Shown in pieces: positions 865-20,205 of a stretch of 20,205 bases of DNA. The notes under the pieces are model-generated. The model made no database searches, was not told the DNA's origin, and worked only from the letters and a program-made list of their open reading frames with translations. The stretch spans positions 1 through 20,205 of IMG/VR virus record IMGVR_UViG_3300006919_000627. One strand, 5' to 3'. Origin of the DNA: a virus. A program made the translations under genes and the position numbers. Numbering within the stretch: the stretch's first letter is position 1; each line of letters begins with the position of its first letter.

Positions 865-3738
865 TTATAAGCCACAGATCCCTCCAGAGCCTCCTGATTG
901 AGTCCATACCCCGCTACCGTTAGTAAGACCTACACTTGACCCATCTGATACGTATGTGTTAGCTATTACAGATGTTCCAGAAGAATTATAAACTACAGTT
1001 GAACCGTCAACAAGTTGTCCACCGCCGAACCCATCGTCAGTAGTAACTTTAAAGCTCGACCCTCCATCAAAGTTTATATCATCGCAAGCGTCTTGACCTG
1101 AGCTTGCATCTGTTCCTAAAGTCATGTTATATAGAGTAACTGCTGCGTTAGTAGGAGTAGGTGTTTGAGTTGGAGTAGGTGTCGGTGATGCTGGAGTAGA
1201 TCCATATATACCGCAATCTCCATCTGTAGTAAATTCACTACCGTTCCAGTATTTCCATATTTCACCGTCTGAGTAGTATTGAGCTGTTGCATGGTCAGCA
1301 ACTAAACAAGTAGCAGCATCATATAAATTATTTGCTGTTGATAACTCTGTACTGTCTATGTAGAATGTTGCTCCGCCGTCGACATAGTCATCACATGCTA
1401 TACCGTAAGTAGACCCTTCACCTAGTGTAACTTCAACACAAGAAGTTTGAGATGGAGAAGGTGTAGGTGTTTGAGTGTTTGTAGGAGTGTTTGTTGGTGT
1501 AGGAGTTTGTGTGTTTGTAGGTGTAGGAGTAGGTGTTGTTTCTGTACAACAAGTTAATCCTGTACTTACAATACCTGCAGCACTATATCCAAAGTAAGTA
1601 TTTTGAGGACCAACTCCACAAGTACCTGAAGTGTCTACATAACTAACATATCCTCCACCAGATAGTTTAGTAGTTCCGATGTATAGATCATCTCCAATCT
1701 CTGGGTATCCATTACTTCCACCGTTAGCTACAGACTTAACTATTTTTATAGTTTTCTGTTTACTTCCGTCTCCAATAGCTTCACAAGCTAAGCCTCCAGC
1801 AGCATCTCCACCTGATGTAGTAGTTATAGGTCCGTTAGATGAAAATACATCTATAGAGTATTGAGCTCTCGATGGAGTTGGCGTAGGTGTTGGTGTATTA
1901 GTTGGAGTTTGTGTATTAGTAGGAGTTACGGTATTCGTAGGTGTATTAGTTGGAGTTTGTGTATTAGTAGGAGTATTAGTAGGAGTATTAGTTGGTGTTT
2001 TTGTAGGAGTTTGAGTATTAGTTGGAGTATTAGTTGGTGTCTTGGTAGGAGTATTCGTAGGCGTTACAGTATTAGTAGGAGTGTTTGTTGGAGTATTTGT
2101 AGGCGTAGGTGTATTCGTTGGAGTGTTAGATGGTGTATTAGTCGGAGTATTTGTAGGTGTAGGTGTATTCGTTGCAGTACCAGTTGGAGTTTGAGTATTA
2201 GTTGGAGTATTAGTTGGTGTTCCAGTTGGCGTATTACTTGGAGTATTAGTTGGGGTAGGAGTGTTAGTTGGAGTATTACTCGGAGTATTAGTTGGTGTGT
2301 TACTCGGGGTATTAGTTGGTGTAGAGGTATTAGTAGGAGTATTAGTTGGTGTTTTTGTAGGGGTATTAGTTGGAGTATTAGTTGGCGTACTAGTAGGTGT
2401 CTGAGTAGGTGTTGCTGTTGGAGCTGCTTCTTCAGTTACTATAATATCAAAGCTACAGTCTAATGTAGGTGTAGGTGTGTTAGTTGGGGTAGAAGTATTA
2501 GTCGGTGTTTGAGTTGGTGTACCGGTAGGGGTATTAGTCGGTGTACCAGTCGGTGTTCCTGTTGGAGTATTAGTTGGTGTATTAGTTGGAGTACTAGTCG
2601 GTGTTGGAGTTTGAGTAGATGTTTCAGTTGGAGTTGGTGTACTAGTAGCAGTACCAGTCGGTGTTTGAGTTGGTGTTTGAGTTGGTGTATTAGTAGGTGT
2701 ATTAGTTGGTGTCTGAGTTGGCGTAGGAGTATTAGTAGCAGTAGGAGCAGGTTCATCATCTACGTCTATTTCAAAACTACAGTCTAATGTAGGTGAAGGA
2801 GTTGGTGTGCTAGTATTAGTCGGGGTAGGTGTATTAGTCGGAGTATTTGTAGGCGTACCAGTTGGTGTACCTGTTGGAGTTCCTGTCGGAGTGTTAGTTG
2901 GAGTGTTAGTTGGAGTTTGAGTAGGCGTAGCAGTTTGAGTTGGTGTGCTAGTTGGCGTAGGAGTATTTGTTGCAGTAGGAGCAGGTTCGTCATCTACTTC
3001 TATTTCAAAGCTACAGTCTAATGTAGGTGTAGGTGTGTTAGTTGGAGTATTGGTTGGTGTAGGAGTATTCGTTGCAGTAGAAGTCGGTGTTGGAGTATTA
3101 GTAGCAGTAGGAGCAGGTTCATCGTCTACATCTATTTCAAAACTACAATCTAATGTAGGTGTAGGTGTATTAGTAGGTGTATTAGTAGGAGTAGGGGTGT
3201 TAGTAGCAGTTGATGTAGGAGTAGGGGTATTTGTAGCTGTTGGTGCAGGTTCGTCATCTACTTCTATTTCAAAGCTACAATCCAGTGTCGGAGTAGGGGT
3301 ATTAGTTGGAGTTGCTGTACTAGTAGGTGTTGGAGTATTAGTTGGAGTATTTGTAGGTGTTGGTGTACCTGTCGGTGTATTACTAGGTGTATTAGTTGGT
3401 GTAGGTGTACCTGTAGGTGTGTTACTAGGTGTGTTAGTAGGGGTACTAGTAGACGTTGGAGTGTTAGTTGGAGTATTTGTAGGCGTTGGAGTATTGGTTG
3501 GAGTTCCTGTCGGAGTTCCTGTCGGAGTATTAGTTGGTGTTTGAGTTGGTGTACTCGTGTTAGTAGGAGTTACTGTGTTAGTAGGAGTTACTGTTGGAGT
3601 ATTTGTTGGAGTTGGTGAAGGTAGTATAACAGGTATATTATCTCCAAAAAGATAAACACTGTTACTGACATCGACAGTTTGTTCTTTTTTAGCTTGTTTA
3701 TAAACTATAAGGGATGATATGTTGTTAGAAAATCCCAT
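865..3738 (-). CDS. Long Thr-Pro-rich fibre/adhesin protein with repeated Cys-containing inserts and three tip domains
   Basis: The 957-residue protein has four parts. An N-terminal segment (1-40) contains VYLFGDNI and is shared with the upstream fibre gene, so it is probably the virion anchor. A Thr-Pro stalk (about 40-622) is built from [12 protein letters not shown] and P-T-P-T units. It is interrupted five times by a 15-residue insert, [15 protein letters not shown] or a close variant. A domain at about 622-730 matches the C-terminal domain of the protein at 10209-10850. Two further Cys-containing domains (about 765-850 and 865-957) are joined by Thr-Pro linkers and resemble each other. 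The start overlaps the upstream stop by one base (TAATG). Role as a distal tail fibre or surface adhesin is inferred from architecture and neighbours. No enzyme motif is visible. Confidence 0.85.
2419..2787 (-). repeat. Two further, dispersed copies of the LDCSF insert
   Basis: Copy four is at 2787-2743 and reads [15 protein letters not shown]. Copy five is at 2463-2419 and is diverged to [15 protein letters not shown]. Spacings from the preceding copies are 234 and 324 bases, both multiples of three. Each copy carries a single Cys followed by an acidic patch, set in the Thr-Pro stalk. Confidence 0.9.
2977..3285 (-). repeat. Tandem 132-bp (44-residue) repeat inside the stalk
   Basis: The insert [15 protein letters not shown] is encoded at 3285-3241, 3153-3109 and 3021-2977, exactly 132 bases apart. 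The complete units 3285-3154 and 3153-3022 encode the same 44 residues except one Glu/Asp exchange. Their DNA differs in about 25 of 44 codons. Confidence 0.9.
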
Positions 3739-4478
3739 TATGGCGTATCACAGTTATAAATTTGAACAACATCTCCAGGATGATCTCCTATACTATCATC
3801 TACTCTTAAGAATGCATTAACATCTGTACCTGTTGCTGAACTACTATCGAATGCATAATAAGTATTAGGAGATGGTGTACAAGTGTCATTTGTAAATACA
3901 GTCAATGATCCTCCTCCGTCTAAGTATGCTTGAGTTGGAGGCCATGAACCGCTATAGTCAGTATATAATACCTGTGCTATAGTTTCACTACAAGCTCCGT
4001 TAAATATTGTTTCTAAAGAAGCACTAAATACTGTTGCATAACATGCTGCGGTATTACTAGGAGTTGGTGTTACAGTGCTAGTAGGTGTTGGCGTACTAGT
4101 TGACGTTGGTGTTGGTGTTGCACTATTTGAAGGAGCCGGAGGGGTACTTGTAGGTGTACCTGTAGGTGTTGATGTGTTAGTAGGAGTAGGAGTATTTGTA
4201 GGCGTACCGGTAGGTGTACCTGTTGGAGTTTGAGTAGGTGTTTGAGTTGGCGTAGGGGTTTGAGTTTGAGTAGGTGTAGGTGTTTGAGTGGGTGTTGGAG
4301 TAGGAGTTGGGTCTATTACTTCTATATTATCACCAAATAAGTATACAGTAGCGTTAGTACAAAACTTTTTAGACGCTTGGTAGTGTGAAATTACTAGATC
4401 TTGTTGTACTAGTTTTTTAAACGCTGAGTATGAAGCATTTTCATTAAATTGATTCTCTATATTTTTGAATGAACTCAT
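3738..4478 (-). CDS. Short Thr-Pro-rich fibre protein, paralogue of the downstream long fibre
   Basis: The 246-residue protein has an N-terminal anchor-like segment (1-56) with [11 protein letters not shown] at 45-55, matching the same block at the N-terminus of the next gene. A Thr-Pro/Gln/Ser linker follows (about 57-140), then a C-terminal domain of about 105 residues. That domain holds four Cys (in ACYATV, GACSE, DTCTP and YNCDTP) and Asp/Gly-rich turns. It is about one quarter of the length of the paralogue, mainly because the stalk is short. The start at 4478 lies directly after the stop of the small frame at 4482-4625. A role as a tail-fibre or adhesin subunit is inferred from architecture and position. 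Confidence 0.8.
4055..4310 (-). repeat. Thr-Pro linker of the short fibre protein
   Basis: About 85 residues of [10 protein letters not shown] and T-S-T-P units lie between the YLFGDNI anchor and the Cys-containing C-terminal domain. The composition is the same as in the downstream stalk, but there are no LDCSF inserts. Confidence 0.85.
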
Positions 4479-4481
4479 TCA

Positions 4482-4625
4482 TTAATAATCAAGCTTGATA
4501 CGTACTAATGCTTCTTTAGTAAAGTCTTTTAATAGTGGACGTGATAACTTTGATACTGCAAGTAAATCGTTATTGTCATTATAAAGGCCTACAGCTGTAA
4601 TATAAGATTGAGGTGAATCAATCAT
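4482..4625 (-). CDS. 47-codon frame: detached C-terminal end of the preceding structural gene
   Basis: ATG at 4625-4623 opens a 47-residue frame that starts MIDSPQSYITAVGLYND, continues LLAVSKLSRPLLKDFTKEAL and ends at TAA 4484-4482. It is in the same frame as the gene at 4641-5504, whose TAA lies only six codons upstream of this ATG. From memory of related T4-like virion proteins, the YIT-x-VGLYND ... LAV-KLS-P ... F-KEAL-KL pattern is the normal C-terminus of such a protein. It is therefore either the far side of a nonsense codon or a separately started small subunit. No Shine-Dalgarno sequence precedes the ATG. Confidence 0.7.
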   Translation of the reverse strand: MIDSPQSYITAVGLYNDNNDLLAVSKLSRPLLKDFTKEALVRIKLDY

Positions 4626-4640
4626 ACTACTGTGTCTAAG

Positions 4641-5504
4641 TTAACCTGATCCTGTTATGTTAGATGGGTTAGTTGAGTAATTAAATTCACTGTTTCTTGC
4701 TCTTACGAACACGTAGTTAGAAGATACTGTTTCTTCGGACCTTAAGGTAAACTCTCCATTACTAGGTGCTTCTAATTTATCATATAAAAGTGCCATATTT
4801 TCAACAGCAGGTGCAACTGAACCTGTTCCTGAACCTAGTGCTATACCTCCGTTAATTACTGTATCGTCTAATGCTTTACCGTTTAGTATAATTAACCCTG
4901 TATCAGGAAGAAATAGACCGTATGATCCGTGTTGTTTAGAGTTTCCTTTAGCGCCTGTGTCTACAGGTGAAGAAGTTTTTGTTCCTGCTGAGCCGCTTAT
5001 GATCTGAAATACTCTACCTGCATCCGTAAATGTTTGAGTAGTTACTTCTTTACTATTATCGGTAAGAAACAAATCACCTAATCTTAAAGTTAAAGAACCA
5101 GGAAGAAGTTTTTCTTTGTATCTAGCTCTTTGTATTGACAGGGCATAGATGTGAGTTACATCTGTACCATCAAAAGATAATTCTATATCTTCTGAGCCAT
5201 TGATTAGACTTCTATACTGTTTATAGATTATACTACTTGGTGTATTTCCTGCTACAGAAAGGTTGATAGCAGCAGAACCTGATCCTTCTTTATTTCCATA
5301 AGCAATCGAAAATTGAATTTGTGAAGCTTCTAATGCTGCATCTCCATTATATACGTCGTAGAAATAATTACCTGTTGCTCCATTTACTTGTGCGGAAGAA
5401 GTAAAAAAGTTCTGTAAAGTTACCTGATTACCGGTCCATGCAGGACTAGAAATCGAGTCAGCACTTATTACTATATCTTCGTTATCGAATCTTTTGAATG
5501 ACAT
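4641..5504 (-). CDS. Virion structural protein, apparently shortened by an in-frame stop
   Basis: The frame codes for 287 residues. Recognisable stretches include YALSIQRARYKEKLLPGSLT, GLFLPDTGLIILNG and, near the end, FVRARNSEFNYSTNPSNITG, a set I associate with a conserved structural protein of T4-like marine phages. Family members normally continue past the NYS-NPS segment. Here the frame ends at TAA 4643-4641, yet the same frame reopens at once and carries the expected ending (4625-4482). Read through, the product would be about 340 residues. The protein is rich in Ser, Gly and Asn and has no signal peptide, as expected for a phage particle protein. The start overlaps nothing and lies 6 bases after the upstream stop. 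The exact role is unknown. Confidence 0.8.
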   Translation of the reverse strand: MSFKRFDNEDIVISADSISSPAWTGNQVTLQNFFTSSAQVNGATGNYFYDVYNGDAALEASQIQFSIAYGNKEGSGSAAINLSVAGNTPSSIIYKQYRSLINGSEDIELSFDGTDVTHIYALSIQRARYKEKLLPGSLTLRLGDLFLTDNSKEVTTQTFTDAGRVFQIISGSAGTKTSSPVDTGAKGNSKQHGSYGLFLPDTGLIILNGKALDDTVINGGIALGSGTGSVAPAVENMALLYDKLEAPSNGEFTLRSEETVSSNYVFVRARNSEFNYSTNPSNITGSG

Positions 5505-5510
5505 ATCTTA

Positions 5511-6170
5511 TTAGTTATTTACTTTAATTATAGTTACGGGAATAGTAATTCTAGCTCCTGAGTCTCTACCCACTAAGGTAAGTGTTGTTTGTAGCTGTGT
5601 TCTACTGCCGAATAGGGTATTAACAGTCGTAGCAGTAAGGTTTATAGAAGTTCCTATTACTGTTTTAGAGACATTAGTACCTGCTGTTGTTACTGAGTTA
5701 AGTCTTTCAGCTTCTTCTGTATTTACTCCTACACCAGAAAAATTAGACACTACTCTTACATCTGCAATTGTTGCTGTATATCCTGCTGCTTCAAAAGTAG
5801 AAGTTGCTCCTAAATAATTAAGAGTTTGAGGAGTAATAGCTAAAGATGCTCCTTGTTTTATTCTTATAGCAGAATATCCTGCTTCTAGTAATGGAAGTTT
5901 AGATGTTCCTCTTGGTAGAGTAGCTAGCTTATACTTCATAATCTGATTTTCATCTGGAAACGCTTCTAGTATTGGCATTGCTTCAATAGCTTCTCCGTAA
6001 AACGATGAACCAGAAGGATGTGTTGTGTTATAGAGTGTGTAGTCTATTTCATCATCAGATAAAGCAAATTGTGTAATTTTGAAAGAGCCGTCTCCTCTAG
6101 CTAAAAGCTCTCTTCCTTTTTTAGTTAAAATTGCGTCGACTGTTACGACTGCGTTGTTTAAGTATCCCAT
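5511..6170 (-). CDS. Conserved virion structural protein (LTKKGRELLARGDG family)
   Basis: The 219-residue protein carries the N-terminal block AILTKKGRELLARGDGSFKI (residues 13-32), followed by QFALSDDEIDYTLYN. I recognise this block from a structural protein that accompanies the baseplate/neck genes in T4-like marine phages. The C-terminal half is Thr-rich with alternating hydrophobic residues (LTATTVNTLFGSRTQLQ, ITIPVTIIKV), which suggests beta strands. It has a 42-base leader gap upstream, one of the longer gaps in the cluster, with a candidate late promoter before it. It lies between two other virion genes. The precise location in the particle cannot be told from sequence. Confidence 0.75.
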   Translation of the reverse strand: MGYLNNAVVTVDAILTKKGRELLARGDGSFKITQFALSDDEIDYTLYNTTHPSGSSFYGEAIEAMPILEAFPDENQIMKYKLATLPRGTSKLPLLEAGYSAIRIKQGASLAITPQTLNYLGATSTFEAAGYTATIADVRVVSNFSGVGVNTEEAERLNSVTTAGTNVSKTVIGTSINLTATTVNTLFGSRTQLQTTLTLVGRDSGARITIPVTIIKVNN

Positions 6171-7157: not shown

Positions 7158-10100
7158 TTATAGACCTGATCCTTCAGTAATGTTTAAGTCGATAGCAATA
7201 ATACCTAGACTAGCATCGAAGTTATCGAGGGTGTAATTAAAGTTAATATTATTATTAGAGCTAAATATATCACTAGTAGGTGAAACATCTAGATGAGTTA
7301 TATCGTAGTTACTCCATTCAATGCTTCCAACAGCTATCGCACTACCGTCTGGTTCGACTCTTAGAACATTTACAAGTACCTCGTCGTTACCGCTAACATT
7401 ATAAAGGTTTAGGTTTACAAAGCCGCCTGCTAAGTCACCTGTAGTAATTGAAGTAGAAGAAGGAGAAGATGAAGGTGTTGCAGTTATCTTATATTCTATA
7501 TCATTATTATTTTCCTGTACACCTATGTTAGGGTATATTCTAATTCTTAGTTGGAACGTTCCGGCTGTACTAGGTGTAGGTGTCATAGTAGGAGTTGGTG
7601 TTGGTGTAGCACTTACTGGTGGCTGCTCAGTTGGTGTTGGTGTTGGAGTCATAGTTGAGGTAGGAGTAGGTGTAGGAGTAGGAAGAACAGCGGACGAAGA
7701 TACATAAGCTATATCTACTATATTTTCTATCGCATCAACATATTTAAATGAGTTATTAATATTTAATTCTCCGTTTGAAATGTCTATCTTACTACCTGAA
7801 AATTCTCCGTCGTATTTAGCTTGTTCGTGACTATGTAAAAAGCTGGCTGCGAATCCACCAGATGTCATATAGAACTCTGTGTATGATGATGAATACTGGT
7901 TTCTACCGCCAAATGCTCCTCCTTCACTCCCTGTAGTCTCTTGTATGCTTATTGATTGAGAAAATTCATTATGTCTTTCAGTAGTAGGTTCTACCTGCTT
8001 TATTTTGTTTCTTTCAAGAAGGTGAGGCTTTATTACAAGTCCGGTATTTACGTTACTTCTTGCTGGTAAGAAATCTATTACTGTTTTAAAAAGTAGATTA
8101 TCGTAATACTTTAATAATCTTGAAAATGCATTTAGATCGTACTTACTTGTGTCAGTAGTAGCAGGTAGATACTCCTCTGCTTTATTTATTAAAGCTTCAT
8201 AGCTACTTGAATATGCATACCCAGGATCTCCTAATATGGAATCTATATCGAAAGAAGCTGCACTTGAAGATGTTATTATTATATCATTGACTTCATCTGT
8301 AGGAGAAAAACCTACCTGGATAGTGTTTAAATCTTTTGAGTATTTGTCACTATCTTGAGTAATGTTTACATATCTTGAAAGAGTAGTACCCTCTATACTA
8401 CCTGTATCACTTATTCTTATTTTACCTAGAGATGCTGTAGTATACTGTAATGGTCCTAGATTATAACTTCCTGATACACTCCCGCCTAGTTGTAAAACGT
8501 TTATACCGGAATGTGAACCAGATGAGTAGAAAGACGGTATACCGAAAGTACTTAATAAAGCTCTCATTCCTCTATCAGTACCTTTGCTCTTTAATAGTAG
8601 AGGTAAATTGTGGTATACTCTCTTATAAATCTGTTTTCTGTAATTTTCTTGAGATGTTACTGTATTTGATCCACTAACAACTTCAACTGGTAAAGTTGAG
8701 GAGTTACCTTCACTTCCAGTTAGGTACGTTTGACCAGTAAACATTTCAAATAGTTCTTGAGTAGACTTATTACTGTTGTATAGTTTTACTCCGAAATTTT
8801 TTAAAGCATCATCAATAAGATCTTTTGATATACCAAAGTCAAGTCTGTTATCAGAATTATACTTATCTGTAACGTTCTTTGCATAGATCCACAAGTTGTC
8901 AAAATGTTGAGCTACCATGTGAATGAAAGTAGTATACTTAACGTTACTAGGATCTTCTCTTAAGAATTCTGGTACTGTATTAATTAGTTGGTTAGGATTA
9001 GTATTATCGAAGTCAGAAGCTGATATAAGCTGACTGTTATACCATGAACCTGTTGCAGATCCTATTACCGGTATATAGGGTTTATCGTTACCTGTTTTTG
9101 GCCAGCTATAAGAGCTTGATTCATAGTATAGAAATCTATCATAATGATCAAAATTAGAAAGTACAGTATTGATTAAATTATCGTAGTGTTCTACACTTGC
9201 GGTAGAATAACTACCTGCTAGTCTTATGTCATTACTTGAAGACTGGTAGCTGTTAATTAAGTCAAGCTTATACTTAAAGTTTCTTAATCTTTCTTCAGCA
9301 GAACTAAAATTGATAAAAGAGTTATAATCTGAATGATCTATAGATAAAGAAGCTCCTTTTTCTTCGAATAAAGACTTTACTTCATAATATGAATTAGTAA
9401 CCGGATAGCTAAATGCTTCATCTATACTTAAGTACTGGGTTGGGCTTGAAGTACCTTTACCTTCCTGTATGTTAAAGTTAGGTCCTTTTAAATATTTAAT
9501 TTTTGGCTCAGCTAAAATTATTTCAGAGTCTACCTTATATGCAATTGAATCGTTAACTTGAGAGTTAATACTCAATTGTTGTTTAACTAATATATCGCTA
9601 GGAAGTTGGTTGTATAGTTTTACTACAACCGAGGTATCTTCTTTATAGTCTAAAGTATCTATATTAGTACAGAGTAGTAATCTATTCTTACCTAAATTAA
9701 GATAGAATGTTTCTGCGTCTGATTCGCTAAGAGAAGTTTTAATTTCTGCTGTACTAGTTTCTACTGATTCTCTACTTGCTTTCGTAGTAACTAGTCTTAG
9801 CTCTTTTCTATCAGGAGATATTTCTTCTATGAAAAACTTTAATTTAGAATTATCTTGAGTGTAGTAATCGTTTAAAAAGTTATAGTAAAGGTATACATCA
9901 CCTGCTTCATACCCTCCAAGTTTAACGTCATCTTCTGTTCTTAGAGTTAATGTAGATAAGCTATTATTTAGAGTAGACTCACTATCTTGATTTGATCTAA
10001 AATTAGTATAGTTGTTTATAGATTTAAGTAACCTACCGTCTAAAGTGTAGTAATGAAGCTCAATAAAATTTGAAAATTGATTAAAGGTACTGTTAACTTT

Positions 10101-10196
10101 AAAGTCCTGTAGCAGCTCGCTATCAGCTGAACTAAAGCTATCTATCTGAATTATCTCAGACGGCTGTACTGGTATAAAGTTATAGTTATACTTCAT
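7158..10196 (-). CDS. Large tail/baseplate structural protein with a C-terminal Thr-Pro linker and extra domain
   Basis: At 1012 residues this is the largest protein in the window. The main body (1 to about 830) includes FIHMVAQHFDNLWIYAKN and, at about 520-550, KRVYHNLPLLLKSKGTDRGM. The latter is a Leu-Lys-x-KGT-x-RG-like element that recalls tail proteins of the P2 gpI type and large baseplate-associated proteins of T4-like marine phages. A Thr-Pro linker follows (about 838-875), then a C-terminal domain of about 135 residues with a beta-strand pattern. The linker and extra domain look like an addition to a conserved core. Its position downstream of gp25 and gp6 suggests the place taken by gp7 and its neighbours in T4, but I cannot show homology to gp7. 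The start follows the upstream stop by 12 bases. Confidence 0.75.
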   Translation of the reverse strand: MKYNYNFIPVQPSEIIQIDSFSSADSELLQDFKVNSTFNQFSNFIELHYYTLDGRLLKSINNYTNFRSNQDSESTLNNSLSTLTLRTEDDVKLGGYEAGDVYLYYNFLNDYYTQDNSKLKFFIEEISPDRKELRLVTTKASRESVETSTAEIKTSLSESDAETFYLNLGKNRLLLCTNIDTLDYKEDTSVVVKLYNQLPSDILVKQQLSINSQVNDSIAYKVDSEIILAEPKIKYLKGPNFNIQEGKGTSSPTQYLSIDEAFSYPVTNSYYEVKSLFEEKGASLSIDHSDYNSFINFSSAEERLRNFKYKLDLINSYQSSSNDIRLAGSYSTASVEHYDNLINTVLSNFDHYDRFLYYESSSYSWPKTGNDKPYIPVIGSATGSWYNSQLISASDFDNTNPNQLINTVPEFLREDPSNVKYTTFIHMVAQHFDNLWIYAKNVTDKYNSDNRLDFGISKDLIDDALKNFGVKLYNSNKSTQELFEMFTGQTYLTGSEGNSSTLPVEVVSGSNTVTSQENYRKQIYKRVYHNLPLLLKSKGTDRGMRALLSTFGIPSFYSSGSHSGINVLQLGGSVSGSYNLGPLQYTTASLGKIRISDTGSIEGTTLSRYVNITQDSDKYSKDLNTIQVGFSPTDEVNDIIITSSSAASFDIDSILGDPGYAYSSSYEALINKAEEYLPATTDTSKYDLNAFSRLLKYYDNLLFKTVIDFLPARSNVNTGLVIKPHLLERNKIKQVEPTTERHNEFSQSISIQETTGSEGGAFGGRNQYSSSYTEFYMTSGGFAASFLHSHEQAKYDGEFSGSKIDISNGELNINNSFKYVDAIENIVDIAYVSSSAVLPTPTPTPTSTMTPTPTPTEQPPVSATPTPTPTMTPTPSTAGTFQLRIRIYPNIGVQENNNDIEYKITATPSSSPSSTSITTGDLAGGFVNLNLYNVSGNDEVLVNVLRVEPDGSAIAVGSIEWSNYDITHLDVSPTSDIFSSNNNINFNYTLDNFDASLGIIAIDLNITEGSGL
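7570..7682 (-). repeat. Thr-Pro linker in the large structural protein
   Basis: About 38 residues of P-T-P-T units, broken by Met, Glu-Gln and Val-Ser-Ala, join the core to a C-terminal beta-type domain. It lacks the Asn-rich T-N-T-P units of the fibre stalk. Confidence 0.8.
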
Positions 10197-10208: not shown

Positions 10209-10850
10209 TTAACAGCTTGCTAATGATTGTACTTGTCCTCCAGCATTAACTGCAACTGATTTAGTTTCTGGTCCTGAACCAAAGTTTCCGCTATAACTTA
10301 GATATCCACCGTTAACAGGTGACCCTGAAATTTTAAGTACATCGTTCACTTCTGGGTAGTTATTGCTTTGCCCATTACCTGAGTCTTTATGTATGTCTAG
10401 AGTTCTATTATAAGCTCCATCAGCAACTACACCACATGCTGTTGACGCATCTGCATCTCCTCCACTAGAAGTTAGGTTACTACTTACTGAGAAGAAATTA
10501 CTATTGCTAAAGACAGCTAAGTTTGTAGGTGTTGGTGTATTAGTAGGTGTAGCTGTAGGTGTTGGGAATACCCAAGTAGCAAATGCTTGTTCGCCATCAC
10601 ATGTTCCGTTCTCTACCTCTACGATAGATCTTGTAACATCGTTATCATCTATTCTTACATTTATTCCTGCGTCTAGAGATGCTTTAGAAATACCTGTTGG
10701 TGAGTTTACATAACCACCACTTCCACTAAGGTAAATTGAACCTGAGGATGGGTTACCATCTGCTAGTGGAGCTTTTACTATCTTATAGGTAGTATCTGAT
10801 TGGTGTGCGTTTCCAAAATTAGCTCCGTTAAAATCTTTGTACTGTGCCAT
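10209..10850 (-). CDS. Small virion protein with Thr-Pro linker and a fibre-type tip domain
   Basis: The 213-residue protein has an N-terminal domain (1-93) beginning MAQYKDFNGANFGNAHQ, a short Thr-Pro linker (about 94-109) and a C-terminal domain (110-213). That domain contains SSGGDADASTAC, NYPEVNDVLKI and NGGYLSYSG. It aligns with residues about 630-730 of the long fibre at 865-3738, which has [24 protein letters not shown] and GGGYVSYV in the same order. It therefore shares a module with a fibre encoded about 7 kb away. It is probably displayed on the baseplate or tail, perhaps as a receptor-binding or decoration protein. The gene is 12 bases upstream of the large structural gene and 1 base downstream of the small coiled-coil gene. 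Confidence 0.75.
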   Translation of the reverse strand: MAQYKDFNGANFGNAHQSDTTYKIVKAPLADGNPSSGSIYLSGSGGYVNSPTGISKASLDAGINVRIDDNDVTRSIVEVENGTCDGEQAFATWVFPTPTATPTNTPTPTNLAVFSNSNFFSVSSNLTSSGGDADASTACGVVADGAYNRTLDIHKDSGNGQSNNYPEVNDVLKISGSPVNGGYLSYSGNFGSGPETKSVAVNAGGQVQSLASC

Positions 10851-12332: not shown

Positions 12333-14138
12333 TTATATAATTGTTACTCGTCCTTTAATGTCTTGGTTAGGATATTTGATTTCGAAAATACAAGGATCAT
12401 ACGACGGGTAAACCGTATTATTTTTTGTAGCTCCTTCTATATCGTAAGCGTAAGCTGAGTAAGTTACTCCGGTGCTATCTTGTTTATTTGTTATTTTTAA
12501 ATTTTGTACTGTTTGTACGCCTTTTACTTTATCTAGAAGAGTATAAATACCTGCAATATTTATAGACTGGTTTATACTTCTTTTATCGATATTAAAAAAA
12601 TCTTTTAGAGCTACATTACACTGGTTGATAACATCTCTACCGGAGTAATTAGGTCTTAGTATAATATCGTATTCAATACCGATATTTACGATAAATGCAT
12701 CCTTTATATTAACAGAATCGGATACCATAATGTGTTCTGATAAATAAGTTTTAAGGTTATTTTTCAACTGTGAAGATGCTGTTATAAGTTTTTTATCTTT
12801 ATCATAAGCAAGTACATACAACCCTAATGCAAAAGGATTATAGTTTTGTACTGTATTAGGATCTATATTGCTATTTAAAATTTGCTCTTGTATTACTAGT
12901 GCTTTAGCAACGCTTCCGAATTGAGGGGGTAAAGAGAGAGCTCTAACAGCATAATCATTCAACGTCACTGTTCTACTTTGTTCGTTAAAAGCTCTTAAAG
13001 AGTTTTCTCTTAACTCCTCTACACTATCTCCATCTCTTCCACCTTCTGCTGCTTTTGGATTAGTAAATGTTAAAAAAGCACTTGATGTTCTAGATGAATC
13101 GCCGTTAGCTAATACATTAAAAGATATAGTATTTAGAGTGTCGGCAGGAATATTTGAGCTTACTCCTCCTCCTTTTAAGTACCTAACAGTAAGGTTTGAA
13201 TCAGGAGCTATTCCGTAAGATTTAGTATGTAAAAAGTTAGAAGGATCGTACGCCTTGTTAAACTTATCTCTTACATTGCTACTTTTTATAGTAGTTGGGT
13301 CAGGGAGTATAATTGAGTCGTCGCTATCGTTGGTTCCTGCTCCAAACTGGATTTGTAAATTACCGTTAGAGGTGAATCTACTCACAAACCTTCTCGGTAC
13401 TTTTTGTATAGCTAGATCACTAGAAGAGGAACCGGATACAAAAATAGTATCTTGTCCTAAATAATCTACTTCTGTCCATTCATTCCCTTCAGCATCTACT
13501 ATATCTAATATACCTACTATGTTAGAGTCTTGTACAGTTAAAGTTTTAAACTGTTCTACGGAATCTATAGAAAAATTAGTTGTCACTATTTCACTTGAAA
13601 ATACATCTACATTTTTTACAAGTTTATATTCTGATGGGTTACCGCTGTCTAAACTATGGATAGTTACTTCAGTTGGATCGTAGGAGCTTGAAAATTGGAA
13701 ATCAACTCTACTATCTATTAAAAATTTAGTCTGAGATGAATCGGTTGAAGTGATTGTAGAGTTTTGAGGTATTATAGCAGCTTGATTCCATTTTGGTAAA
13801 TATGGACTTGATGAGTTAGCTTGTATAATTTGAGTTATTTGTAATTTAGTTGATGATACTCCTGTTGTTTTAGGTTTATAACCCATCATGTAGGCTAAAG
13901 AATATAAATTCTTTGGATCTTTTGCATGAGTTAAGAAAGTTTCTTGAAGCTGACTATCTTGGTAGAAAGATAGGATATCCCCTACATAGGATGCCATCTC
14001 TATAAACATCATTCCAGGTGAAGTAGGAGAAAAGTCATTATAGGTATTAGGAAAGTAGTTCTTTGTATACTCTATTAGTTGTGATCTAAAGTCATTAAAT
14101 CCTCTATTTACGTATTTTATTTCTCTATCTTGAGCCAT
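12333..14138 (-). CDS. gp6: Baseplate wedge protein gp6-like (baseplate J family)
   Basis: The 601-residue protein matches the gp6/baseplate-J type. Diagnostic is the N-terminal block at about residues 35-90: NDFSPTSPGMMFIEMASYVG, then DILSFYQDSQLQETF and LAYMMGYKP. This is the typical opening of wedge protein gp6 in T4-like phages. In T4, gp6 forms the continuous ring of the inner baseplate and binds gp25, gp53 and gp7. The stop codon of gp25 and the start of this gene overlap by one base. Later segments such as AKALVIQEQILNSNIDPN and NYSGRDVINQCNVALKDFF fit the conserved C-terminal half. The length is close to that of T4 gp6. The start lacks a Shine-Dalgarno sequence. Confidence 0.9.
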   Translation of the reverse strand: MAQDREIKYVNRGFNDFRSQLIEYTKNYFPNTYNDFSPTSPGMMFIEMASYVGDILSFYQDSQLQETFLTHAKDPKNLYSLAYMMGYKPKTTGVSSTKLQITQIIQANSSSPYLPKWNQAAIIPQNSTITSTDSSQTKFLIDSRVDFQFSSSYDPTEVTIHSLDSGNPSEYKLVKNVDVFSSEIVTTNFSIDSVEQFKTLTVQDSNIVGILDIVDAEGNEWTEVDYLGQDTIFVSGSSSSDLAIQKVPRRFVSRFTSNGNLQIQFGAGTNDSDDSIILPDPTTIKSSNVRDKFNKAYDPSNFLHTKSYGIAPDSNLTVRYLKGGGVSSNIPADTLNTISFNVLANGDSSRTSSAFLTFTNPKAAEGGRDGDSVEELRENSLRAFNEQSRTVTLNDYAVRALSLPPQFGSVAKALVIQEQILNSNIDPNTVQNYNPFALGLYVLAYDKDKKLITASSQLKNNLKTYLSEHIMVSDSVNIKDAFIVNIGIEYDIILRPNYSGRDVINQCNVALKDFFNIDKRSINQSINIAGIYTLLDKVKGVQTVQNLKITNKQDSTGVTYSAYAYDIEGATKNNTVYPSYDPCIFEIKYPNQDIKGRVTII

Positions 14139-18668: not shown

Positions 18669-19403
18669 TTATAAGTTTTTTAACATGTTTGACAGTCCGT
18701 CTGATGAATTTACCCGTCTGCCTGTAGTAGATTTGGTTTTAGAAACCTTAGATTGAGTGTTACCACCGTTTTTAAGCCAAATATCGTACTCAACTTTAGA
18801 GGCTAAGAAGTCTGCAGTGTGAAGAACTGAAATAATAGAGGTTTTCTGTCGGGATGACTGTACGTTGCTGAAAAAGTACGCTTCGTTAGCTTTATCAAAA
18901 ACTCCATCATGGCATCTTATAGCTAAAAACTCTTTTTGACTTACTTTTATACCAAATTTTTGTAAGATAAATAGAGATCTATCTGGTATAAGCATAAAAT
19001 CTAAGTCTGGGTTGTATGTATACATCTCGGATAACTTATCTTGCCTCCATTTATCAGTCTGAGGTATAAAATTAGGTGAATCTCCGTCGCCTATCTTACC
19101 TAAATCGTGGAACAATGCGGCAAATACCAGTTCTTCTTCGGTGAAATCAATAGAACCACCCATTTCTTCGTATAACCTAGACTGTTTTACCGCAAATTCC
19201 ACTACTCTGTTAACATGATCGACATATCCTCCTGCAAATGCATTATGATACCAAGTTTTTCCACTAGCAGGTGCCATAACATAAGTATCCTCCATGTGGT
19301 TAAGCATTGAAAGTATACCCTCCTTACGATCTCCTATGTAAGTATCTATAATCTTAAGGTGCTTTTGGTAGTTTTTAGATATTTTTTCTGCCGATAATGC
19401 CAT
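18669..19403 (-). CDS. HD-domain metal-dependent phosphohydrolase
   Basis: The 244-residue protein has the HD superfamily ligand set in order. H63 is in YVDHVNRVV, H99-D100 in FHDLGKIGD, H165-D166 in IRCHDGVFD, and D198 follows in LHTADFLA. HD enzymes use one or two metal ions to hydrolyse phosphate esters such as nucleotides or signalling nucleotides. The full motif set suggests an active enzyme; the substrate cannot be told. The C-terminal 30 residues are Ser/Thr/Lys-rich and probably disordered. The gene follows a 118-base A/T-only-like gap that is the largest intergenic space in the window, so it may begin a transcription unit running into the sigma factor. Similar genes occur near late genes in T4-like marine phages, by my recollection. 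Confidence 0.85.
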   Translation of the reverse strand: MALSAEKISKNYQKHLKIIDTYIGDRKEGILSMLNHMEDTYVMAPASGKTWYHNAFAGGYVDHVNRVVEFAVKQSRLYEEMGGSIDFTEEELVFAALFHDLGKIGDGDSPNFIPQTDKWRQDKLSEMYTYNPDLDFMLIPDRSLFILQKFGIKVSQKEFLAIRCHDGVFDKANEAYFFSNVQSSRQKTSIISVLHTADFLASKVEYDIWLKNGGNTQSKVSKTKSTTGRRVNSSDGLSNMLKNL

Positions 19404-19521: not shown

Positions 19522-20151
19522 CTATTTTACAATAAACTTTTCTAAATACTTTGATTTAGTTATCGTACTTGCTCCTGCATCCCAATTTACTCGCATATAA
19601 ATTGTAATAGTATCACCAATCATCTGCGGAATAAATGGACCTAAATAACGCCTAGTAGTAAATTTATTATCTTTTTCTCTAAAATACAACTCCGTACGCT
19701 GTGCTATGTTAACTTCAATTCCTTTATACTGAGTTAATGCTAGATCTGTATAGTCCACCGGTAAAGGAATACCTGTAGATGTAACCGGACCAAAAGGTGA
19801 GTATATAGGTTGCTGTATTACTAATGTATCTCCTATCTTCCAAGAGGTATTACTATCAAACTCTGCTGTTACTACCGAAGAATTATTATACCGGTATTGA
19901 GGGCTAGTTCTATCTGCTTGAACATCTACATAAAAGTAAGGTAAGTACTCTCCTGTCCAATCTAACTCTACATGGTAATAACCGTTACTATCCTTATCTC
20001 TATAAAACTCTATATAACTACTACAATCACCGCTTTCACAAACAGCAGGTAAAAGGGGTTCGGGTGAGCAAGAGAGGGTAAGGTAGAATATAAGGCCTAC
20101 GGCCGCCGCGCGAAACGCGCGAAGTTGCCACGAAAAATTTCTACTTATCAT
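19522..20151 (-). CDS. Putative phage-encoded lipoprotein
   Basis: The 209-residue protein opens with a signal sequence: a basic start (MISRNFSWQLRAFR), a hydrophobic core (AAAVGLIFYLTLS) and Cys28 directly followed by SPEP. The lipobox is TLSC, not the textbook L-[AST]-[GAS]-C, so lipidation is likely but not certain. The mature part is rich in Tyr, Asp and Thr with alternating strands (YIEFYRDKDSNGYYHVELDW) and looks like an extracytoplasmic beta domain. Two further Cys (in AVCESGDCSS) lie soon after Cys28. Phage lipoproteins are known to block receptors against superinfection (Llp of T5), which is one possible role. The codons for residues 11-20 contain two GC-rich inverted repeats in otherwise AT-rich DNA. 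The start overlaps the end of the preceding frame by 11 bases. Confidence 0.75.
   Translation of the reverse strand: MISRNFSWQLRAFRAAAVGLIFYLTLSCSPEPLLPAVCESGDCSSYIEFYRDKDSNGYYHVELDWTGEYLPYFYVDVQADRTSPQYRYNNSSVVTAEFDSNTSWKIGDTLVIQQPIYSPFGPVTSTGIPLPVDYTDLALTQYKGIEVNIAQRTELYFREKDNKFTTRRYLGPFIPQMIGDTITIYMRVNWDAGASTITKSKYLEKFIVK
20107..20121. repeat. Perfect GC inverted repeat, 6-bp arms and 3-base loop
   Basis: CGCGCG-AAA-CGCGCG lies in the first codons of the lipoprotein gene, about 30-45 bases after the ATG. A second small inverted repeat, GGCC-TAC-GGCC, adjoins at 20094-20104. Both would fold in the mRNA. Confidence 0.85.
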
Positions 20152-20205
20152 TTTTACCAGTATAACGTTCTCCTAATCTTTCGATTACAGCTTTCGCTTC
20201 ATCTA
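20141..20205 (-). CDS. C-terminal end of an upstream gene (partial)
   Basis: A frame open from the window edge ends at TAG 20143-20141. The last 20 residues are DEAKAVIERLGERYTGKNDK, helical and charged, which reads like a genuine protein end. The stop lies 11 bases inside the lipoprotein gene, the usual overlap style of this cluster. Nothing can be said of function. Confidence 0.55.
   Translation of the reverse strand, partial: DEAKAVIERLGERYTGKNDK

Follow-up and report, generated by a model that had tools for sequence, protein, structure and literature searches.

Qbeta, an RNA phage, has a constitutive readthrough system. Its A1 readthrough coat protein is an established example of a phage virion protein made by programmed readthrough (PMC8067240), and the gene examined here, on a 20,205-nucleotide stretch of virus DNA (IMG/VR record IMGVR_UViG_3300006919_000627; hereafter the window), resembles A1 in that the frame of a putative virion protein is interrupted by a stop and runs on beyond it. 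Its stop, however, was unique to one copy and was absent from all relatives listed.

The nearest annotated relatives of the gene product came from Flavobacterium phage immuto (Immutovirus) and Microcystis phage Mel-JY01, where all are named "hypothetical protein"; a "T4-like" label, as given in the original prediction, was therefore not established. Besides these two phages, the family comprised an unannotated 484-kb phage, many viral contigs and, weakly, Rhodothermus phage RM378. The immuto homologue (QQO92082.1 of vB_FspM_immuto) was 50.5% identical over residues 1–287 and 85% identical over the last 75 residues, and the gene upstream of it, immuto35A_163, is about the same size as the window's neighbour. 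In immuto, however, the homologue is one intact 337-residue gene, followed by a different gene and then by tail fibre and tail spike genes. No significant family match was found in PHROGs or Pfam, and searches of PDB by sequence and by fold gave nothing significant. The better matches of a BFVD fold search were uncharacterised or unnamed phage proteins, and weaker partial matches bore lectin-like or laminin G-like names. A literature search on Mel-JY01 found no paper, and the paper on Baltic Flavobacterium phages does not mention immuto. Judged by its position, the product is at best guess a baseplate- or tail-associated structural protein, and a role in the tail or baseplate is plausible because the gene shares its module with a baseplate-wedge-like gene. 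The name "virion protein", which derives from nearness to that gene, is accordingly kept here as putative.

The interrupted frame and its near-identical intact copy

As listed in Table 1, the minus-strand frame of the window read MSFKRFDNED...NYSTNPSNITGSG up to an internal TAA, and the unshifted frame beyond this stop read LRHSSMIDSPQ...VRIKLDY up to a second TAA. Joined across the internal TAA, the two parts made a 340-residue protein. When the frame was followed past the stop, residues 1–340 aligned over their full length with intact homologues; with a TAA at residue 288, the window copy does not itself form a single uninterrupted frame. The continuation showed 100% protein identity to the C terminus of the intact copies L001 and L002 and was conserved across the 106 relatives among the matches listed, indicating that it is not a chance extension of the frame. 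Thus, it was confirmed that an in-frame TAA cuts the gene, that the same frame runs on to a terminal TAA, and that the ending expected for the family lies just past the internal stop.

Table 1. Features of the interrupted gene and its surroundings (window coordinates)
Feature	Position	Strand	Description	Basis
Gene, 5′ part	4641..5504	-	Residues 1–287 and premature TAA	Window reading frame, intact homologues
Premature TAA	4641..4643	-	Glutamate codon in G001/L001 and L002–L005	Contig comparison
Same-frame remainder	4482..4640	-	52 residues past the stop position and normal terminal TAA (4484–4482)	
47-codon ORF from ATG 4625	4482..4625	-	Mechanically listed; internal Met codon, not an evolved start	
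Gene junction TAATGAATGAG	4474..4484	-	Conserved; terminal TAA, back-up TGA and ATG of the next gene	
Upstream neighbour	5511..6170	-	219 aa; about same-sized gene at the same place in phage immuto	
Baseplate wedge subunit	12333..14138	-	PHROG 6; puts the gene in the tail/baseplate module	

The public contig IMGVR_UViG_3300006916_000265, a second record (G001, also L001), covered the whole window with unchanged gene order. The two were collinear and identical at 20,197 of 20,205 bases (99.96%), with eight substitutions and no indels. Within the gene, G001 differed only at coding base 862, in the first position of codon 288; it has a glutamate codon there instead of the TAA and hence the full 340-residue frame. 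The expectation that one base change would restore a protein of about 340 residues was thereby borne out by a natural contig. On the coding strand, the substitution of the window was G to T, turning the glutamate codon into TAA. Glutamate also occupied residue 288 in the sister contigs L002 and L003, with 90% identity over the whole protein, and in the more distant L004 and L005, with about 59% amino acid identity. A search for the TAA allele elsewhere with an allele-neutral 23-base pattern matched three contigs only (L019, L028 and L056, which are other names for contigs L002, L003 and L001, respectively), and all three carried GAA.

Readthrough, split gene and recoding

Four explanations had been offered in the original prediction: nonsense mutation, sequence error, programmed readthrough and a split gene. 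The first two jointly remain, whereas the latter two had no case among the 106 relatives listed. These 106 distinct homologous C termini came from three scans, one with a DNA pattern, one of viral contigs with a profile and one of bacterial genome contigs, and more relatives exist. None of the 106 among the matches listed held a stop within the stretch matching the window's stop and continuation, and none had the fragment as a separate gene, three flagged cases being merely cut by contig ends. Nor did any of them end at the stop point and carry an independent small gene after it.

Programmed readthrough of the TAA, which would yield short and long forms of the protein, accords with a frame that continues unchanged into a conserved C terminus. 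Such a mechanism, however, needs a stop that is kept by selection, and the stop was found in 0 of 106 relatives listed, the 99.96% identical contig included. Furthermore, RNA structure in the 100 bases past the stop was not significant (z = −1.17), intact copies use the sequence 3′ of the stop as ordinary coding sequence, and the window contained no tRNA gene and, within it, no suppressor tRNA was found. Of the three stops, UAA is also the one least prone to readthrough. Readthrough as a conserved mechanism was therefore refuted, and we consider it highly improbable that the stop is read through by programme.

The 47-codon ORF would be an independent small gene or a second subunit if the gene were split, and the presence of an ATG five codons past the internal TAA agrees with such an arrangement. 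Against it, this ATG aligned with internal, variable residues (M, F, L and others) of intact homologues, and in no relative among the matches listed did the two halves occur as separate genes. Supportively, a tblastn search of phages with the last 75 residues matched seven records, and no free-standing C-terminal gene was seen in the annotations read: in immuto, Mel-JY01 and RM378 the match was the end of one longer gene, LR756508 being without annotation. Every homologue with annotation that we examined was one gene. A split gene was thus refuted by the homologues listed and, like readthrough, is given very little credence.

That the phage reads TAA as sense is an idea suggested by one in-frame TAA within a conserved gene, but 18 of the 20 complete genes of the window terminate in TAA, including this gene at its own normal end, as do 100 of the 106 homologues among the matches listed. 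Recoding was refuted by this stop usage, and its probability is practically negligible.

The lost C terminus and the origin of the stop

The DNA as written would yield a 287-residue protein, and the 53 residues lost from it form the most strongly conserved segment of the protein. Mean column identity was 0.77 in residues 288–340 versus 0.58 in the rest, and 9 of the 27 invariant positions fell in this segment. Comparison of the sister phages found seven synonymous and no non-synonymous differences in residues 288–340, versus 54 synonymous and 55 non-synonymous differences in residues 1–287. A moderately confident structure model (mean pLDDT 69, pTM 0.65) placed three beta strands there (301–308, 314–325 and 331–339), all missing from the truncated form. 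Because of this conservation and the three predicted strands, the 287-residue form is most likely non-functional.

Tandem paralogues were seen in Mel-JY01 (L008; 4907–5977 and 5983–7038) and in L053 (7023–8027 and 8046–9260), and they share the same motif at the C terminus, GLY with a K.D/E-Y/F end after it. This sharing of the motif suggests that the conserved C terminus could be a reusable assembly or docking module.

Taken together, sequence error and real allele very probably account for the stop as a private nonsense change in one assembled copy: a single private G-to-T substitution makes the glutamate codon of residue 288 a TAA in an otherwise ordinary 340-residue protein of the structural module. 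If some of the differences between the window and G001 are unselected, a nonsense change needs no special cause, since eight unselected substitutions with the observed transition/transversion mix, placed at random in the genes, would be expected to include at least one nonsense with a probability of 0.24. Polarisation by the outgroup G003 assigned six differences, five derived in the window and one in G001, which in so small a sample is a weak sign that private changes are in excess on the window side.

Within this private change, the base is probably an error of the metagenomic consensus, introduced by sequencing or DNA damage at low depth or by assembly, because a probably non-functional allele would not be expected to predominate in a healthy population of phages. 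G-to-T change is a familiar DNA-damage artefact. An error or an unfit single-copy variant is accordingly favoured over an established allele, with a small remainder for other readings. A real nonsense allele, in a defective or attenuated genotype that intact co-infecting phages complement or that is tolerated because the gene is partly dispensable, is the less likely of the two, though a serious possibility. Its surroundings are clean, with no indels relative to G001. Furthermore, four of the eight differences from G001 were synonymous, a share slightly above that expected of unselected errors (P of four or fewer changing = 0.14), which suggests that some of them are probably real polymorphisms and that the contig includes real variation. 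However, the part lost is the most conserved of the family, the TAA occurred in no other contig in the 23-base pattern scan or among the 106 C termini listed, and a lethal variant, expected to be rare, should not often make its way into a consensus. It is very unlikely that the TAA is a real allele that segregates in a population of aquatic phages and whose truncated product is tolerated or complemented, in which case the conserved C terminus would be conditionally dispensable.

A consensus error, or a single unfit variant, is in itself an ordinary finding of little consequence. Before readthrough or a split gene is proposed for an in-frame stop in a metagenomic phage contig, near-identical contigs should be consulted. 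In this record, neither the automatically listed 47-residue ORF nor the 287-residue truncation is a product that the gene normally makes in the family.

Gene junction and other features of the window

The junction TAATGAATGA, in which the terminal TAA is followed by an in-frame TGA and the ATG of the next gene, was present in at least 50 of the 106 relatives among the matches listed, and its TAATGA start in 66 of the 106. It may allow translation of the two genes to be tightly coupled while providing a back-up stop.

Thr/Pro repeats (PTNTPTPT...) occurred in the minus-strand genes at 865–3738, 3738–4478, 7158–10196 (C-terminal part) and 10209–10850. In a 957-aa protein these repeats are interspersed with near-identical 18-letter blocks; the same protein carries three of the eight differences between the window and G001, and it is also less similar to the sister contig G003, at about 75–81% identity around those sites. 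A GIY-YIG endonuclease of the SegE type is encoded at 375–839 on the minus strand (Pfam PF19835, E 5e-26), and its gene has one private window change, Gln to Leu at codon 117. At 19522–20151 (minus strand), a 209-aa protein begins with a signal-peptide and lipobox-like sequence (LIFYLTLSC) and may be a phage-encoded lipoprotein that acts at the surface of the host. Near the structural module, an HD-domain phosphohydrolase-like protein is encoded at 18669–19403 on the minus strand (Pfam PF01966 above cut-off, PHROG 28876).
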